A stretch of DNA of 30,304 nt from a virus. This document shows, in pieces, positions 13,261 through 30,304 of this stretch (position 1 is the first letter of the stretch; each line of letters begins with the position of its first letter). The notes beneath the pieces are model-generated. The model did not search any database, had not been told where the DNA came from, and saw nothing but the letters and a program-made list of their open reading frames with translations. Position numbers and translations under genes: made by a program. Location: IMG/VR virus record IMGVR_UViG_3300009370_000122, positions 1 through 30,304 of that record; one strand, written 5' to 3'.

Positions 13261-16200
13261 TTAATAATTAATATTCCAATTATTTGCTCCAACTGCTGTG
13301 GGGGCATTGTATCTATATGGATGCGGATGATTATTTCCTGACACATACACCCAATCTATCTGGTTTACTGTTTCGACGCCTGCATTCATATCATACCGCA
13401 AATATGTAATTTTCTTTCCTACCCATTCAGCCTGACCAGACAAGTCAAAATACTTCTCCGTCCAGACATTAAGCCCGTTGTGGCCATCATCTCCGAGATC
13501 AGGGAGGGAATGTAAGGTTTCACTATCATCGTTCTTCCATTTGAATGCATATGTGTTTGATGTTGGCTCCATTCCGGCGGCGGTCATCTTATATCTAAAT
13601 CCTACCTTGTCATATGCGGCTCCATGAATGTGGGTCGGCAAGGTAATTTGCATTGTCTGTTGACCAGACCCGGTGACTTGAATATAATTATTGGAATCTC
13701 CGCCTTCCCACACATATGTAATGGGGACAGAGGAATGCTGGTTCAAAAACTCCCATCCATTTTGCGTGTTTGCATATTCCCACCGATATACTTCGGTTTC
13801 GTTTGTGGTTCCGTCTTTGTGAATTAGATGTTCTTGCAGTCTATATTTGTGAGCCAGATACCCTTCGACAAGTGCAATTTTTGTATTTGAAAGTTTTTCA
13901 TTGAATACAACAATTTCTGCAATATCTCCGTCCCAACTTGCAGTTCCGTATGGATATTTTGCATTCACACCATGAGTTCCTGTGTCCCAAATTGTATTAT
14001 TTGATGGTGCCCAGGCACCAATCGAAGTAACATAATTCTGCTGTAATTGATTACTCAACCCAGTTCGACTCAAATCGTTTGAAATATTATTAATTTCTGA
14101 ATTTGAAAACCGACGACCATCAACATGGAAATTCAAAAGTTCGGAAGTTGACCCAGATGCAGCATTGATAGAAACACCAACAATTCTGAATACATTTTTT
14201 CCTGTGGCATAAGAAGTATTTGTCAAAGGTCTGGCAGTATTGGGAGAGGCGGCCCCGAACGTCGAAACCGTTGCCGTATTTGTCTGCTCAATTCCACCTG
14301 TTGAATTTGTTGTATTGATTAAAACGGCGCCCATTGTTCCATCAACATCATATCCTAAAGATAACGTTCCGGGCTGGTTTAATGCGCCGTCTGATAGAGA
14401 GTCCTTGTTTCCGCCATACCCAGAATTGATTATCATTGGATTAAGAGTGGAGTCATAAAATGAAGAATTGATTGTAAGATTAGATTGAACAACCGCCATG
14501 ACTGTCCATGTATTTGCAACAGGAACGGAAAGTGTATTAGAAGCAAGACTCTTTGTTGCCTGTAAGCCTACAGTCGGAGGCTTGTCTGTTCCCGGGCCAC
14601 CAATGGAACTCCATTCATATACCTTGCTTGCGCTTCCTGTGTGGTCAGACCACACATAGGCAGATCTCCTTGGCGTTGGATTATTGATTACTGTATTTGC
14701 CGAAAAGCGAATCGCAGGCATACCGTTAATTGCATTGGCAACATACTGAGGGGTATAAAAAATTCCACCATGAGTATTTGCATACACATGATGCTTGTTT
14801 GGGCTTCGGTCGTTCCATGAAATAACGTTTGCTCCAGAGTATCCTGGCTTGACATATGGAGTTTTATATGGGAAAACGGCATCATATCCATGAGCAGTCC
14901 CGCTTGTGCCCTCGCCCGTAAGGCCGGGAATCCAGCCATGAACAGTATTAGAATATTCTTCGAGCATAAACCCATCGAACCATTGTACTACATTTGCCGA
15001 ATAGTCTCCTCCGGCTGGGATTCTATGAGGAATGCTTATTGACAGCCGGGCCCGGGTTGCCGGAGATCTCCGCATATCCAATGTTGTTGCATTTCTTTGC
15101 CATACATAGTTTTCTTGCAACCCATAGCCACGGACATGGCCCACCTGGCTATAAAAATCGGAATCTCCATACTCAGAAGATACATGAGAATGTGTGGAAT
15201 TTACCCTTAAAACAGTAGAAGAATTTGCGGTAGCCAGGGTTGCAGACATCCCACTATAATTTTGTCCCTGAGCCACCTCAGTCATAACATTCGATGTCAT
15301 TTCCCAATAACTAAGAACCCACATTTTGAATGGTTCTAATACAATTGGATAATAATAATCAGAGCGGCCGCCTGCCTGCCAATATTTTTGGTCATCTGGG
15401 TTATAGTGCAAGCCGACTTGGGAGAGTGTTGTCCAACTATCTGAAGTTAGTTTTAATATGTTTTTGTCCAAACCTCTTTTATTTTTTGTGTCCGCAGCCA
15501 ATCCAAGACGGTCGCGGGCATCCCCACCATCAGAAAATAACATCGAAGACACCGAAGCATTATTTGCTGACACATTTCTATAGGTTTGGCCAATGTGGTC
15601 AAAATCGTCAGGAACAATTACACCAGTATCATCAAAGTCAGAAAACCAACCGAGGGGAAGACGATTTTTAGTTGAGCCAAAAACTGCATTTGAGGTTCCT
15701 CCCGGAACATCTCTCTTGACCTGAAAATTTTCTGGAACAACCGAATCTGCGCTCCACCATCCTGCAAGGGAATCCAGAGATTCCGGGGAGAAGGTGTCGA
15801 GGAGGTTTGTGTTGGAACGTTCTTTTACGTCAATTACATAGATGTCAGTGTTTCCAAAATTACCGACGCCTCTGGAAGAGGAAAAGGCAATCTGGGTGCC
15901 ATCAGGGGACCATGCGGGGCCCCGATCAACCGCAACATTACTCGTCAGCCATATCGGATTACTTCCATCTTCGTTCATCACTTTAATATCAAAATTGTGA
16001 TTGGGCGGGGCCGAATCGGCATGAGCCATATTCCATGATTGAATGGCAACCTTGGTGCCATCGGGGGACCACCGTGGATAGTAATCATTCATGACACCGG
16101 GGGGGTGGATAGAAGGAGAATGATTTGGGATTTTCGTCCGATTCGTCCCATCTGCATTCATCACAAAGATTTTATTGTAATTACCAGACCCAGCATCATT

Positions 16201-18696
16201 CGGATGCGGGTAGGAGTAAAAGCCAATCTTGGTGCCGTCAGGGGACCATGAAGGACCGCGATCACCCGTAGCACTATTCGTGAGTCTCGTCTGGTTTGTT
16301 CCATCTGCGTTTATCACATAGATTTGGTCCCTGAATTCGCCCTCGGCGATGGCTGTGTTTGCGACAAAGGCAATCTTGGTGCCATCGGGGGACCATGCGG
16401 GCTGCCGCTTTCTTGGAAGGTCGGCGATGGGCGCATCAGCCCGCAGGGGAGTCACCGACTGAGCATCATGTGTGAGTCTTGTTAAAGACGCTGCCGTGTG
16501 AAACGGAAATTCGTCGGTATCAACAACTCCGCCCGCATCCATCACATAAATCTCATTTTGATATGAACCAACAGGAGCATACGCATCAGCATCCCCCCAC
16601 AGCCAGCTATGTATTTTTGACTCAAAGGCAATCTTGGTGCCATCGGGGGACCATGCAGGGTACAAGCCGGACCCCCACCCTGGCATGAGGCTCCGAACAT
16701 TAGTTCCATCGACATCCATCTTAAAAATTTCATAGAGGGTCAGGGCGGGATTGGTATAGCGGGAGAAAGCAATCTGGGTGCCATCGGGGGACCATGCAGG
16801 GTATTGGTCGATGAGTAACGAATTGTCTGTAAGTTGTGTAATCTTCCCAGGCTTCACATCAATCATGTCACTCATTCTTCGAGAACTCTCTGAAATTGTC
16901 GTGCCGAACATCTTCATTCCGGCTGGATGAACTGCCTCGCGGACGACCGTTGCATAGTCTTTTATTTGTTGTTTGGAACGAATATCATATGCATAGATTT
17001 GCCAATAATGGCCATCCTGTATATGTGCCCCTGTTGTCGAAAGAAGACTCCGCTCGTCACTATAACTTCCGCTATGCATACCCAATTGAGTCTGCATGGG
17101 AGTAAGTTCTTCAAGAGAAATAAAATCAATCTGTGTGATTCCCTGTGAATATGTTGCACCATCTCCGGGCTCATTTACCTTGAAGGTTGGTTTGATGAAA
17201 GTGGTATTAAACGGAAGAAGCACTTCTCGATCTACTGCCTTCTGGGCAGAATTATAATATCGGGTTCCGCTCGTCAAATCCCTTCGGCCGCCATTGCCAT
17301 AATTCTTTGCAGAATAGGGAGAACCTCCAACATTTCTTCTTGTTTCTCTTCCCTTGAAATATGCCGTATATACAAAAAACTCATCATCAATTGCCTGCTT
17401 ATGAGAAACCAACCAAAGTGGATCTTCCCATTGATCTTTGTAATTGTCTGCACTCAACTTTCTGAGGTCATGACGAACGCAAGAAACTCCGGCCGAAAAG
17501 CGATTTCCTTCGGCAACAGATACGGCAGAATTTCCACCCAAATCCCTGGCACGAATGGACATTCGATAAAGACGATCCTCACCACCAATTCCCACATTCT
17601 TTGCAAATACAATATGTCTTTGATCGCCAGTCGCAGAAGCGAGCGTACTATTGTTTCCAATTTCTAATACAACCCCACCATATGAGCCATAGACATTGGA
17701 GACTAATTTAATTTCCCCGGTGCCGTCTCCGGTGGTATGCCATATTCCGGTATTGCTATAATCAATATTTGCAGACCCCCACGGAGGGTTTGTGCTATTT
17801 GCCCGCTGATGAACCAGCCCATCATACATAGAAATAACATTATTTGTAGATCCATACTGAAAATCCTCAAAAACCAACATACTTTTTGTCATGGGCAACA
17901 CTATTGTATTTGAAACTGTCGAATTGACATCATCCACATAAATATCTTCAAAGAAATCAAAATTTCCAGATTGATCTGTCATGTATATGTGGGCTGTAGA
18001 ACTTCCATGTTCAAGATATTTCATCGGGTCATAAATTTCAGTATTTGACACTCCAGAAGTATATGAAGTAGATGTGTTTCCAATTCTTCCTGTAATAAAC
18101 GAGTCACTTCCCCCTGGAAGAACTTGGACCCGTTCTACAGTTCCGTATGCGCCCGAAGTGGCCCCAACAATCCTCGTATTCTCAATGTCATTCAGATTTT
18201 CAACATAATTAACCCTAATCCTAGATTCTTTTGTATAATTTCCTCCGCTGGCAATCAAAACATCCTGAAACGGATAATAGAGTTCAATTTCATCATTAAA
18301 CAAAAGGCGAAAGAGCATCTTAAAGGAATCTTCTGTTCCTACTGCACGATAAAAATCAACTAGATTCTTATATAAAAGTCTTCGGTCGGCTGCATCTGCC
18401 ACCTGTTGGGGAAGACCGTGGCCATATTGTTTTTGAAAAGACCCAATAAACTTATCAAGATCTGTTGTATCAATATCATTAATATCGGTAATAACCTTTG
18501 TTGCATGATCTGCGCCATAATAATGAGAAAGGCCGTCCGAAGTCGCAATTCCAGAATTAGCCTGAGCAAGAAACTCATAATATTTTTCAATAAATGTAAC
18601 AAATTTAGGATGATCTCCCCGAATAAAATCCGGGATCTGTTCTGACACCAAAAGAGAAGTCTGATGCGTATTTGCAGTTTTAATTATTGCTGCCAT
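13261..18696 (-). CDS. Gene-7-position baseplate protein with TolB-type propeller and LamG-like extension
   Basis: An 1811-residue protein between gp6 and gp8, the place of T4 gp7. Residues 1-170 carry the start typical of this marine T4-like family: QIPDFIRGDHPKFVTFIEKYYEFL, then a helical part ending GTEDSFKMLFRLLFNDEIEL. The family's usual C-terminal signature, HPAGMKMFG, occurs at 590-598, so residues 1-605 look like the complete core, with a beta-rich domain at 260-500. About 1200 more residues follow. Residues 614-965 hold six PD40/TolB-type blades (xPxWSPDGTxIxF; Trp at 635, 682, 768, 817, 876, 929). A LamG/ConA-like pattern begins LAGWWSAD (about 975-981) and resumes at SWNDRSPN (Trp1294) to EGYLAHKYRL (about 1617). 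Residues 1640-1811 are another beta domain. Start ATG has AAGGGAA upstream. The core belongs in the wedge; the extension probably contacts the cell surface (inference). Confidence 0.85.
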   Translation of the reverse strand: MAAIIKTANTHQTSLLVSEQIPDFIRGDHPKFVTFIEKYYEFLAQANSGIATSDGLSHYYGADHATKVITDINDIDTTDLDKFIGSFQKQYGHGLPQQVADAADRRLLYKNLVDFYRAVGTEDSFKMLFRLLFNDEIELYYPFQDVLIASGGNYTKESRIRVNYVENLNDIENTRIVGATSGAYGTVERVQVLPGGSDSFITGRIGNTSTSYTSGVSNTEIYDPMKYLEHGSSTAHIYMTDQSGNFDFFEDIYVDDVNSTVSNTIVLPMTKSMLVFEDFQYGSTNNVISMYDGLVHQRANSTNPPWGSANIDYSNTGIWHTTGDGTGEIKLVSNVYGSYGGVVLEIGNNSTLASATGDQRHIVFAKNVGIGGEDRLYRMSIRARDLGGNSAVSVAEGNRFSAGVSCVRHDLRKLSADNYKDQWEDPLWLVSHKQAIDDEFFVYTAYFKGRETRRNVGGSPYSAKNYGNGGRRDLTSGTRYYNSAQKAVDREVLLPFNTTFIKPTFKVNEPGDGATYSQGITQIDFISLEELTPMQTQLGMHSGSYSDERSLLSTTGAHIQDGHYWQIYAYDIRSKQQIKDYATVVREAVHPAGMKMFGTTISESSRRMSDMIDVKPGKITQLTDNSLLIDQYPAWSPDGTQIAFSRYTNPALTLYEIFKMDVDGTNVRSLMPGWGSGLYPAWSPDGTKIAFESKIHSWLWGDADAYAPVGSYQNEIYVMDAGGVVDTDEFPFHTAASLTRLTHDAQSVTPLRADAPIADLPRKRQPAWSPDGTKIAFVANTAIAEGEFRDQIYVINADGTNQTRLTNSATGDRGPSWSPDGTKIGFYSYPHPNDAGSGNYNKIFVMNADGTNRTKIPNHSPSIHPPGVMNDYYPRWSPDGTKVAIQSWNMAHADSAPPNHNFDIKVMNEDGSNPIWLTSNVAVDRGPAWSPDGTQIAFSSSRGVGNFGNTDIYVIDVKERSNTNLLDTFSPESLDSLAGWWSADSVVPENFQVKRDVPGGTSNAVFGSTKNRLPLGWFSDFDDTGVIVPDDFDHIGQTYRNVSANNASVSSMLFSDGGDARDRLGLAADTKNKRGLDKNILKLTSDSWTTLSQVGLHYNPDDQKYWQAGGRSDYYYPIVLEPFKMWVLSYWEMTSNVMTEVAQGQNYSGMSATLATANSSTVLRVNSTHSHVSSEYGDSDFYSQVGHVRGYGLQENYVWQRNATTLDMRRSPATRARLSISIPHRIPAGGDYSANVVQWFDGFMLEEYSNTVHGWIPGLTGEGTSGTAHGYDAVFPYKTPYVKPGYSGANVISWNDRSPNKHHVYANTHGGIFYTPQYVANAINGMPAIRFSANTVINNPTPRRSAYVWSDHTGSASKVYEWSSIGGPGTDKPPTVGLQATKSLASNTLSVPVANTWTVMAVVQSNLTINSSFYDSTLNPMIINSGYGGNKDSLSDGALNQPGTLSLGYDVDGTMGAVLINTTNSTGGIEQTNTATVSTFGAASPNTARPLTNTSYATGKNVFRIVGVSINAASGSTSELLNFHVDGRRFSNSEINNISNDLSRTGLSNQLQQNYVTSIGAWAPSNNTIWDTGTHGVNAKYPYGTASWDGDIAEIVVFNEKLSNTKIALVEGYLAHKYRLQEHLIHKDGTTNETEVYRWEYANTQNGWEFLNQHSSVPITYVWEGGDSNNYIQVTGSGQQTMQITLPTHIHGAAYDKVGFRYKMTAAGMEPTSNTYAFKWKNDDSETLHSLPDLGDDGHNGLNVWTEKYFDLSGQAEWVGKKITYLRYDMNAGVETVNQIDWVYVSGNNHPHPYRYNAPTAVGANNWNINY
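15886..16800 (-). repeat. Six direct repeats encoding TolB-type propeller blades
   Basis: Six copies of a roughly 30-base unit, core GTGCCATCGGGGGACCATGC on the plus strand with few changes, occur at 15886-15919, 16045-16077, 16222-16253, 16370-16402, 16628-16660 and 16771-16800. Each encodes WSPDGT(K/Q) in the minus-strand frame. Spacing between the blade tryptophans is 47, 86, 49, 59 and 53 residues, so the blade cores are much more conserved than the loops. Similarity at DNA level, including synonymous positions, suggests recent duplication or gene conversion between blades. This is a repeat inside a gene, not a mobile element. Confidence 0.85.
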
Positions 18697-25957: not shown

Positions 25958-26416
25958 ATGGCATACAAAGGAAAGTGGAAACCAAAGAATCTTGAAAAAT
26001 ATGAAGGGAATCCCTTCAAAATCACCTATCGTTCCCTATGGGAAAGACAGGCATTCAAATGGTGTGACGAAAATCCAGAAATACGTTCATGGAGCAGCGA
26101 AGAAATCATTGTTCCTTATATTTCAAAAACTGACGGAAAGCGCCATAAGTATTTTCCCGATCTAAAGATTACATATGCAAATGGAAAAACCTCTCTCATA
26201 GAAATAAAACCCAAGAGACAAACAAAACCGCCCAAAGTCAAATCCAGAAAAAGCCCAAAATATATAAAAGAAGTCTATGCCTACGGAATGAATACATCAA
26301 AATGGGAATATGCCAAAGAATATGCAAAGGACCGAGGATGGAATTTTGAAATCTGGACTGAAGATGAATTAAAAAAACGAGGAATACGCATAATTAAACA
26401 ATCAAAACATAAATAA
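25958..26416 (+). CDS. gp4: Head completion protein gp4 (TnsA/PD-(D/E)XK nuclease-like)
   Basis: A 152-residue protein similar to T4 gp4 (about 150 residues), which is needed to finish DNA-filled heads before tails attach. The nuclease-like core is visible: YRSLWERQAFKW with Glu29, then HKYFPDLKI with Pro67-Asp68, then LIEIKPKRQ with Glu82-Ile-Lys84. This is the E...PD...ExK arrangement of TnsA-like endonucleases. The C-terminal half is basic (KPPKVKSRKS), consistent with binding DNA, and ends KQSKHK. Whether gp4 proteins cut DNA is not established; the acidic residues are kept here. There is no good Shine-Dalgarno sequence; AGGCGA is 15 or more bases upstream. It is the first gene of the plus-strand block and ends 4 bases before the next gene. 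Confidence 0.88.
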   Translation: MAYKGKWKPKNLEKYEGNPFKITYRSLWERQAFKWCDENPEIRSWSSEEIIVPYISKTDGKRHKYFPDLKITYANGKTSLIEIKPKRQTKPPKVKSRKSPKYIKEVYAYGMNTSKWEYAKEYAKDRGWNFEIWTEDELKKRGIRIIKQSKHK

Positions 26417-27874: not shown

Positions 27875-28609
27875 ATGGCTTTACCAAAAATTGATGTTCC
27901 GCTTTATGAGTTGAATCTGCCATCAACAGAAGAAAAAATATCATACAGACCTTTTCTGGTGAAAGAAGAAAAAATTCTTTTGATGGCCAAAGAAGGAAAA
28001 GACGAAAAAGAAATCACAAAGGCAGTCAAGCAAATTATTAACAACTGTGTGGTAACAAAAGGAATAGACTCAGAAAAATTACCATTATTTGACATTGAAT
28101 ATATTTTATTAAATCTTAGATCAAAAGCAATGGGCGATGTCATAAAAACTAGCTATGTTCATCAAGATTGCCCGCAGGCAAAAAAAGAAGGGAAGGAACC
28201 AAAAGCAATTGAAGTTGAAATTAATACAAACACAATTGAAATTATTAAAGATCCAACTCACACGACCAAAATTCAATTATCTAACAATGTCGGCATAATA
28301 ATGAAATATCCAGATGTGAGTATGATGGAAAAAATGCAAAATGTTGATGTAACAACTCCAGATTCTACAATTGATATAATTACAAAATGTATTGATTCTT
28401 TATACGACGAAGAAACCGTATACGGAAAAACCGACTATACACCAAAAGAGCTTAAAGAATTTATTTTAAATCTTACACAAGAACAGTTCTCAAAGATAGA
28501 ACATTTTTTTGCATCAATGCCAAAACTACAAAAAGAAATTGAATTTGTATGCACCTGTGGATATAAGGAAAAAATATTGTTGGAGGGACTCTCTAGTTTT
28601 TTTGGCTAG
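27875..28609 (+). CDS. gp26: gp26-family protein, probable tail assembly chaperone (zero-frame product)
   Basis: A 244-residue protein of the T4 baseplate hub gp26 family (T4 gp26 is 208). Family features are the start MALPKIDVPLYELNLPST, ISYRPFLVKEEKILLMA at 22-38, INNCV, LPLFDIEYILLNLRSK at 69-84, LSNNVGIIMKYP at 135-146, and the end LEGLSSFF preceded by a Cys-x-Cys (226/228). With Cys99, the Cys pair may bind metal. AAGGAG lies 11 bases upstream. The two final Phe codons form a T TTT TTT slippery heptamer, so a share of ribosomes is predicted to continue in the -1 frame and make a 306-residue form. Position just before the probable tape measure gene fits a G/G-T type chaperone pair. T4 gp26 is classically called a hub protein, so both names are possible. 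Confidence 0.88.
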   Translation: MALPKIDVPLYELNLPSTEEKISYRPFLVKEEKILLMAKEGKDEKEITKAVKQIINNCVVTKGIDSEKLPLFDIEYILLNLRSKAMGDVIKTSYVHQDCPQAKKEGKEPKAIEVEINTNTIEIIKDPTHTTKIQLSNNVGIIMKYPDVSMMEKMQNVDVTTPDSTIDIITKCIDSLYDEETVYGKTDYTPKELKEFILNLTQEQFSKIEHFFASMPKLQKEIEFVCTCGYKEKILLEGLSSFFG

Positions 28610-28637
28610 TTCTCTCTGACCGCTCGTTGGAGGGAAC
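28597..28637 (+). promoter_or_regulatory. Programmed -1 ribosomal frameshift site with hairpin
   Basis: The slippery heptamer T TTT TTT is at 28597-28603, in the correct phase (AGT TTT TTT GGC TAG). After a 5-base spacer (28604-28608) the bases 28609-28620 pair with 28626-28637 to form a 12-bp stem with three G-U pairs and a 5-base loop CGCTC. The lower 8 bp are GTTCTCTC with GAGGGAAC. The zero-frame stop TAG is at 28607-28609, at the base of the hairpin. A -1 shift continues with WLVLSDRSLEGTLRTNFSL into the ORF at 28660 and stops at 28792-28794. All three parts of a classical -1 site are present. Actual use is inferred. Confidence 0.75.
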
Positions 28638-28659
28638 TTTACGAACAAACTTTTCATTA

Positions 28660-28794
28660 ATGCAATATTATAATTATACCTTATCAGACCTTGAAGGAAT
28701 GATGCCCTGGGAAAGAGATTTATATGTTGGATTATTAAAAGAATATATAGAAAAAATAAAACAAAAACGAGAAGAAGAAAAGAGAAGAACCTAA
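28660..28794 (+). CDS. -1 frame extension ORF of the gp26-family gene (tail assembly chaperone 'T' part)
   Basis: A 44-codon ORF starting MQYYNYTLSDLEGMMPWERD and ending in a charged helix (EKIKQKREEEKRRT). The motif 'M..Y.YtL.dlE.MmPWERDlYv.LL' is characteristic of small proteins found after gp26-family genes in T4-like phages. There is no Shine-Dalgarno sequence before the ATG: the 20 bases upstream read ACGAACAAACTTTTCATTA and similar A/T sequence. The -1 frame is open back to 28597 without a stop, so the ORF is probably translated mainly as the C-terminal 63 residues of a 306-residue frameshift product rather than alone. It ends 6 bases before the probable tape measure gene. It is sometimes compared with T4 gp51, but T4 gp51 is far longer (249), so I give no symbol. 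Confidence 0.75.
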   Translation: MQYYNYTLSDLEGMMPWERDLYVGLLKEYIEKIKQKREEEKRRT

Positions 28795-28800
28795 AAACCA

Positions 28801-30304
28801 ATGGCAACCGAAACAAATAATTCTGAAGGCAATCTGGTAATTACTCCAGAACAACAACAAGTAATATTCAAACCTCTTGCCGCATTTGCTCAAGGCGCGC
28901 AAAAGATTGGTTTGGCCCCGGCGGCGGCTGGAGCGGCAGTTGGTGGGTTTGTCAAAAAACATGCAGACACTTCGGGTATCGGCCCAAGAGATTTTTATAC
29001 TGCCGGGGTGGAGGGAAATCCAATTGCAATGATGCTCTTTGAAATGACCTCCGATTTAATGACAAAAACAAAAGATGCCATGACAGATATTTTTAATTTC
29101 GGAGGAAAGGACGAAGACAAGCCTGCAACAGAAGGCGTTCAAGAAGAAATTAAAACTGGCGTTGAAAGTATTGACAACTCTCTACAAGAAGACCCAGGCG
29201 CGGGACTGGAAGAAATTGAAAAAGCCAGAGAATCTGCTCGACGAAAAGCAAGCGGACGAGAAAGCGGCAAAGAAGCCGCCAAAGAGAAAAAAGAAAAAAG
29301 GGGATTTTTTGCCAAATTGGCAGACAATATGATGACTGCGATGGGGAGCAATCTCCTTGGCACGGCAATATTTGGTGGAATTACTGCATGGTTGCTTACT
29401 GACGATGGAAGAGAAACTGTAAAGGCTCTTTGGAACGCCATGCCCTGGGATGCTATAGGAGAAACCATTGTAGATTCTCTTCCGGGCCCAGAAGATATAA
29501 CAGAGGTGGTCGAAGAGGATCCAGGAAAAACAGCAATGGCCACCGGATCGGCAACAAGGTTTGCCGCAACCCGAGGATCACGACTTTTTCCGGGGCAAAC
29601 GCTTCCGCATACGGCATCAGGAAGGTTCATCAGAACAACCGCCGAAAGATTTGCTGCAAACGCAATAGATCCCTCAAGACTGGAAGCGAAAAGACTAAGA
29701 GACATCGCTAAGTTTGCAAAAAAAGGGGGCTTCAATCTAGTGGGCCCTTCGTCTGTGCGGCAACCGGCCGGGGCGGCGGGCGGTGTGGGCGGCCAAACGG
29801 TGAAACTTCCAGAACGTTTAACAAAGAAAGGGGCAGCAGCGGCGGCCGAGACAGCAGAAAGTGGACTAGAAAGTGCAGGGAGGCATCTCAAAAAACTAAA
29901 AGCCGCCGGATGGATCGGAAAGGCATTGGAGCTTGGATTTGCTGCCAAGGACATATTAGACTTATCCAACGCTCTTGATGCAGGAATCATAGATCAAGAT
30001 ACCTTTGATTATTTGGCAGGGTTGCGGGCAATGCAATTTATCGATACGGCTGGAGGTGCTGCTGCTGGTGCAGGTTTGGGCGTCGGGGCAACGGGAGCGA
30101 TTGCTCTCCCCACAGCAGGTATCGGGGCCCTGGCAGGGCCACTTGTTGTTGGGGGATTCTCCTGGGCAGGAGCAGAATTTTTTGAATGGCTAGGAATTGC
30201 ACAAGATAAATGGAAAGATGCATGGATAGAAAAGCATGGTAAAATCCCAGAAGGGGTGGAAGAATTTTTACAACTTCAGAATGCTCAAGAAGAACGAGCA
30301 GAAG
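28801..30304 (+). CDS. Probable tail tape measure protein, 3' end missing
   Basis: The frame is open from the ATG at 28801 to the window edge (501 codons). After an N-terminal part (GNLVITPEQQQ, FKPLAAFAQG) it alternates charged helical stretches (EEIEKARESARRKASGRESG) with hydrophobic Gly/Ala segments: residues about 177-198 (MGSNLLGTAIFGGITAWLL) and 413-463 (DTAGGAAAGAGLGVGATGAI and beyond). That composition, the place directly after the frameshifted chaperone pair, and the tube initiator two genes upstream, all fit a tape measure protein (gp29 in T4), which fixes tail length and has segments able to enter the host membrane. I see no direct sequence match to T4 gp29, so the name rests on context. 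GC content is visibly higher than in the preceding gene. The ribosome site is a weak AAGAGAAGAA in the ORF before. Confidence 0.7.
   Translation, partial: MATETNNSEGNLVITPEQQQVIFKPLAAFAQGAQKIGLAPAAAGAAVGGFVKKHADTSGIGPRDFYTAGVEGNPIAMMLFEMTSDLMTKTKDAMTDIFNFGGKDEDKPATEGVQEEIKTGVESIDNSLQEDPGAGLEEIEKARESARRKASGRESGKEAAKEKKEKRGFFAKLADNMMTAMGSNLLGTAIFGGITAWLLTDDGRETVKALWNAMPWDAIGETIVDSLPGPEDITEVVEEDPGKTAMATGSATRFAATRGSRLFPGQTLPHTASGRFIRTTAERFAANAIDPSRLEAKRLRDIAKFAKKGGFNLVGPSSVRQPAGAAGGVGGQTVKLPERLTKKGAAAAAETAESGLESAGRHLKKLKAAGWIGKALELGFAAKDILDLSNALDAGIIDQDTFDYLAGLRAMQFIDTAGGAAAGAGLGVGATGAIALPTAGIGALAGPLVVGGFSWAGAEFFEWLGIAQDKWKDAWIEKHGKIPEGVEEFLQLQNAQEERAE

Follow-up and report, generated by a model that had tools for sequence, protein, structure and literature searches.

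A probable programmed −1 ribosomal frameshift site in the tail assembly chaperone gene of a T4-like phage

The locus analysed here raises the question whether a gp26-family gene of a T4-like phage encodes one protein or two. A 2016 review describes the G-T frameshift as conserved in long-tailed phages except T4 (PMC5009743). The window, a stretch of 30,304 nucleotides of viral DNA (IMG/VR record IMGVR_UViG_3300009370_000122, positions 1 to 30,304), carries a gp26-family gene which a sequence-only reading had taken to end in a −1 frameshift signal joining it to a small ORF. Judged by slip site, reading frame, conservation, homology and constraint, all of them read from sequence, we consider it very probable (about 0.94) that the gene encodes a tail assembly chaperone and that its ribosomes are programmed to shift by −1 at this site. 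The features are compiled in Table 1.

Table 1. Features of the proposed frameshift locus (positions in the window)
Feature	Position	Strand	Basis
gp26-family gene, short form, 244 aa; probable TAC-N / G-like tail assembly chaperone	27875..28609	+	PF12322, phrog_150, AlphaFold2 model
Internal Shine-Dalgarno-like element GGAGGG, 9 bases 5' of the slip site	28582..28587	+	sequence; conservation and codon bias among relatives
Slippery heptamer T TTT TTT, in phase	28597..28603	+	sequence; T6C, T6T or T6A in phase in 159 readable IMG/VR loci
−1-frame extension, gp51-like tail (TAC-C / T-like)	28597..28794	+	phrog_634, phrog_150 C-terminus, homology to T4 gp51 200-245
Zero-frame stop TAG, base of the hairpin	28607..28609	+	sequence
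Probable 3' stimulator, a stem-loop of 13 bp with a loop of 5 bases	28608..28638	+	folding; suppressed synonymous change
Possible tape measure gene, interrupted by the end of the window; 567 aa in L001, where it is complete	28801..30304	+	position only

The gp26 gene ends with AGT TTT TTT GGC TAG (28595-28609) in frame with its ATG at 27875, which places the heptamer in phase. No stop codon interrupts the −1 frame between the slip site and the TAA at 28792-28794, six bases before the next ATG (28801), and the long form is predicted to have 243 + 63 = 306 residues. The first ATG of the small ORF lies at 28660, where no ribosome site with proper spacing was seen by eye. On the phase of the heptamer, the frame open back to it, the missing ribosome site and the distance to the next gene, the sequence-only reading was borne out. 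Runs of T7 number 10 on both strands of the window, fewer than the 28.65 expected; since such runs are by themselves not rare, the evidence for a slip site lies in its phase, position and conservation. The gp26 product belongs to the family PF12322 (T4_baseplate; 2.5e-58, 197.8 bits, cut-off 24.5) and matches phrog_150 (9.5e-64). The −1-frame peptide falls into the gp51 family phrog_634 (9.8e-20, profile positions 56-118 of 121). It also matches, weakly, the far C-terminal end of the gp26 family profile phrog_150 (6.9e-4), which suggests fusion in some members of phrog_150.

Conservation was followed in two sets of IMG/VR relatives. The first holds the best 80 of at least 595 confirmed relatives, among them the contig of the window itself (L001, 100% identical); the gene in L007 runs off its contig, so that 79 loci are readable. 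In all 79 the −1 frame continues over the gp26 stop with a related tail (cut by the contig end in L062). An in-phase T6C (59 loci) or T6T (19 loci) occurs within the last 15 codons of gp26 in 78 of them, with the P-site codon of the slip site 9-30 bases before the stop; the remaining locus, L079, has a T7 slightly above the 15-codon limit, at the place where its −1 frame opens. Elsewhere in the gp26 genes of this set, in-phase T6N was counted 27 times in 17,805 codons. The second set, the best 80 of 594 with some contigs in common with the first, has an in-phase slip site at every locus (71 T6C, 7 T6T and 2 T6A; the tail of L142 is cut short). The check proposed beforehand, a conserved slip site, thus succeeded in 79/79 and 80/80 of the loci fetched from these overlapping sets, and conservation of the −1-frame protein across the zero-frame stop, as foreseen, was found among these IMG/VR relatives as well as in 12 of 22 phage records.

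The position of the start codons bears on the alternative reading of the small ORF as an independent gp51 gene, with translation beginning at the ATG at 28660 or through coupling once gp26 has terminated. In 55 of 78 loci the first in-frame ATG comes 20-21 codons past the slip site, and the residues before the first ATG are conserved and present in T4 gp51. In the window this ATG lacks a correctly spaced ribosome site, and coupling would have no need of a T6Y heptamer. A separate gene would agree with the annotation of the tail as a CDS of its own in ValKK3, Bellamy, Melnitz, P-SSM2 and KVP40, with the ATG that overlaps the stop in K355 and LR756511, and with an in-frame ATG 3-6 codons past the slip site in 11 of the 78 loci. 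Weighing both sides, we regard it as very improbable for the window and prefer the programmed −1 frameshift.

A further element, GGAGGG at 28582-28587, does not appear in the sequence-only reading. Anti-Shine-Dalgarno pairing peaks at this place in 120 non-redundant loci, being −4 kcal/mol or lower in 108 of them as against 28 of 480 background blocks; 12 loci miss this cut-off. The stretch encodes Glu-Gly in 100 of the 120 loci, where the Glu codon is GAG in 67/100 compared with 608/2,732 in the gene body (p 1e-20). The observed pairing is also stronger than in a synonymous-codon null (mean −7.0 versus −5.0, p 3e-15), and 12 of the 20 loci without Glu-Gly still reach −4. Among the 11 frameshifting phage records scored, Desulfovibrio phage 7757 being left out, ten reach the cut-off and Moby does not. 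Judged by codon choice and predicted pairing, the internal Shine-Dalgarno-like element is selected beyond its amino acids. The working distance of −1 stimulators upstream of the slip site is given as 9-14 nt in PMC5009743. No report of a Shine-Dalgarno stimulator at T4-like chaperone sites was found in the open-access part of the literature. For the ratio of short to long form, the conserved element adds a second signal that can be put to a direct test.

On the 3' side, the hairpin claimed over the zero-frame stop was confirmed by folding. Its predicted arms, 28608-28620 and 28626-28638, form 13 bp after a 4-base spacer or, counted as 12 bp, after a spacer of 5 bases. The predicted energy is −17.0 kcal/mol (z −3.1), equalled by 2 of 200 shuffles, and for the wider stretch 28570-28680 (z −4.3) none of 200 shuffles was as good. 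The expected covariation and conservation across relatives did not hold. The window's hairpin is confined to its own clade (L001-L006) and was not seen at the IMG/VR loci outside it. Within the clade, the inner 11 pairs form in all six sequences and the outer two are broken in some. Ten of the 13 pairs are invariant, one changes on a single side, the outermost does not form in two sequences, and one shows a both-sided change in a single sequence of the six and is broken in three; by no measure does covariation exceed that of shuffles, of which 330 in 500 attain the observed value. Support for the window's hairpin instead comes from suppressed synonymous variation. Of the conserved codons, 1 of 7 varies synonymously in the stem region, compared with 16/17 in the rest of the tail (p 3e-4) and 63/77 in gp26 (p 6e-4), the stem codons having been chosen after the fold was seen.

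A universal 3' RNA structure was rejected, RNAalifold giving no consensus for 47 sequences nor for the 42 outside the window clade. The mean z at the site (−0.94) does not differ significantly from that of controls (−0.34; p 0.21). Values of z under −2 occur in 14 of 41 non-redundant loci versus 13 of 123 control stretches (p 0.001) and, outside the window clade, in 10 of 37 loci (p 0.03, with controls from all 41), in differing forms. No shared register was found among the possible structures of other clades, and a comparison of 28000-29200 with Rfam found none of its families up to E 1. Separate 3' structures may exist in some of the other clades.

As improbable as a separate gp51 gene is slippage of RNA polymerase on the T run, which would yield an mRNA pool with one base more or fewer: T7 in the window and T8 in L049, L050, L052, L053 and L065 would suit it, but the run is no longer than T6 before a C at most loci (59/79 in the first and 71/80 in the second set), selection is seen on the Shine-Dalgarno-like element, whose target is the ribosome, and in the window clade the stem extends over the stop.

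The AlphaFold2 model of gp26 (pLDDT 89.5) gives a suggestive structural match over its N-terminal part. Residues 1-95 align with the HK97 tail assembly chaperone 2ob9 (Z 7.5), with 3fgx (Z 7.5) and with 3klu (YqbN, Z 6.7). Of the 981 chains that Foldseek proposed for alignment, no others reached Z 2, and Z values of 6.7-7.5 lie under the level that the tool calls safe. Foldseek itself, run against the PDB with the gp26 model, returned nothing significant (HK97 TAC at rank 26, E 5.7), nor did the gp26 profile match the sequence of any solved structure in the PDB. From the family, the −1 architecture and this suggestive fold match we infer a chaperone function, in line with the earlier proposal that gp26 and its partner are tail assembly chaperones. 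The proposal is not new, since the title of a 2022 paper by Vladimirov, Gautam and Davidson (Virology 566:9-15) reportedly claims genes 26 and 51 as the tail assembly chaperone genes of T4-like phages. In PMC3004832 (2010), T4 gp26 and gp51 are listed as hub assembly chaperones; gp51 is described as essential and absent from the particle with its function given as unknown, and genetic evidence is cited for gp26 within the hub.

Around the locus, on the other strand, lie the tail tube cap, a gp53-like gene and further tail genes, followed onward by head closure, DNA end protector, tail tube, gp26, the gp51 tail and a long gene. This order matches phiM19 and, details apart, ValKK3; in P-SSM2 the head closure gene is on the other strand. 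The complete 567-aa product of the long gene has no Pfam or PHROG match, and in Bacillus SP-15 and Listeria LIS04 a tape measure annotation stands on the gene that follows gp26 and its tail. Elsewhere in the window, the minus strand at 13261-18696 encodes a 1811-residue baseplate-wedge-like protein in which five stretches match the WD40-like beta-propeller family PD40 (Pfam 2.3e-38). The head closure gp4-like protein at 25958-26413 also matches a TnsA-like endonuclease N-terminal domain (PF08722, 3.6e-19). An ORF of 283 codons (29139-29990), perhaps a by-product of base composition, runs antisense to the possible tape measure gene.

We propose that most ribosomes would stop at the TAG at 28607 and release the 244-residue short form, while a minority would slip one base back on T TTT TTT, probably aided by the Shine-Dalgarno-like element behind and the stem-loop ahead, and continue in the −1 frame to a 306-residue long form with a gp51-like tail. 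Slippage itself, its efficiency and the part of each stimulator are what we infer from these signals. By analogy with lambda G/GT, the tape measure protein would carry many short and few long forms, and tube subunits would be recruited through the tail domain.

Outside IMG/VR, the tail match is present in 545 phage records. Twenty-two records were chosen for spread, so that fractions among them are not frequencies; 12 have a −1 junction and 10 have other arrangements. The claim that related phages keep the slip site stands for the 12, namely Aeh1, ValKK3, KVP40 (a near relative of ValKK3), Moby, OLIVR5, phiM19, XG4, Desulfovibrio 7757, Bellamy, Melnitz, P-SSM2 and S-8S53, and fails for the 10, which are without a −1 site. 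Two separate genes are found in T4, RB43, Krischvirus LF73P4 and kv_tblp8. In Vibrio phage K355 (L088 4212) and the uncultured phage LR756511 (L180 3275), the ATG of the tail overlaps the gp26 stop as TAATG, which suggests that coupled re-initiation has replaced frameshifting there. The sequence A CTT TTC in K355 was considered as a slip site and rejected, being judged unable to re-pair. A gp51-like tail in the +1 frame follows gp26 in Streptococcus GXN1, Bacillus SP-15, Listeria LIS04 and the 484-kb uncultured phage LR756508. GXN1, SP-15 and LIS04 have NCC CGA TTY in common directly ahead of the stop, where a +1 shift might take place. No annotated record opened has a single CDS covering both frames; the tail is either given as a gene of its own or left without annotation.

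T4 itself makes its two forms from two genes. Both gp26 and gp51 carry PF12322 (8.8e-64 and 3.9e-52), and BLASTP relates one to the other with 2e-6 in a single comparison. A profile of 45 −1-frame tails, each read from the slip site, matched all four T4-type gp51 proteins tested (5.6e-10 to 1.8e-5), compared with 0.2 for the best of 200 shuffles; among 35 real proteins no short form reached 1e-3. In T4 gp51 the match starts at F200, just where the PF12322 domain (1-201) runs out, so that T4 has as one chain the product that slippage should yield. By homology, T4 gp51 is a gp26 paralogue that carries the frameshift-type tail in frame from the slip position on. Genes 26 and 51 are divergent in T4 and tandem in RB43 (L090 3501-4794), where a long gp51-like and a short gp26-like gene might be an intermediate of the duplication. 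In a 36-row tree, T4-type gp26 and gp51 form one clade (99/95), to which the frameshifting Aeh1 and ValKK3 are nearest, weakly (88/75). RB43_gp26 falls beside the gp51 rows (96/79), apart from the other gp26 rows, and GXN1, RB43_gp26, OLIVR5, K355, XG4 and Moby have long branches; for these reasons only the joint T4-type clade is relied on. The tree is consistent with a gp26/gp51 duplication inside Straboviridae.

Frameshifting in T4-like tail assembly chaperones was already published in 2022, and the window is a further well-formed case. According to papers citing Vladimirov et al. 2022 (PMC10274946/PMC10885494, PMC12846349), poly-T slip sequences in the TAC-N genes of T4-like phages, as well as a short gene with a fused longer gene in some of them, are credited to that work. 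Added here are the conserved internal Shine-Dalgarno-like element, the hairpin limited to the window's clade and a distant branch with a +1-frame tail; the homology of genes 26 and 51, compared between T4 and the −1-frame tails, was shown in the present analysis. We give roughly even odds to a wider scenario in which T4-like chaperones had an ancestral frameshift (internal Shine-Dalgarno and T6Y), 3' hairpins were added separately in some clades, and the route to two forms was swapped several times, by duplication inside Straboviridae, by overlapping start codons and by a +1 shift at NCC CGA TTY in SP-15, LIS04 and GXN1. Independently of that scenario, the sequences confirm that the old T4 exception is local: the relatives examined mostly keep the frameshift, and the long form of T4 is hard-wired as gp51.

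Among known systems, T4 genes 26 and 51 resemble the window in carrying PF12322, gp51 with the same C-terminal tail, and differ in being two genes, both of which lack a T6 run at the matching place. The window shares with lambda G/GT (PMC5009743) the encoding of a short and a −1-extended long form by one gene, a likeness found in sequence architecture and conservation, and the HK97 chaperone is joint top structural match; unlike lambda G/GT, the window's gp26 has no sequence match to any solved structure. An internal Shine-Dalgarno sequence is not mentioned for lambda-type sites in the text consulted, in contrast to the window's element. The −1 signal of E. coli dnaX, as described in the literature, combines a 5' Shine-Dalgarno-like element, a heptamer and a 3' stem-loop, and the window has the same parts, an X XXY YYZ heptamer, a Shine-Dalgarno-like element 9-14 nt upstream and a 3' stem-loop, the first two widely conserved and the last in the window clade. 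The dnaX heptamer is A_AAA_AAG instead of a T run, and frameshifting yields the short form in dnaX, whereas in the window it would yield the long form.
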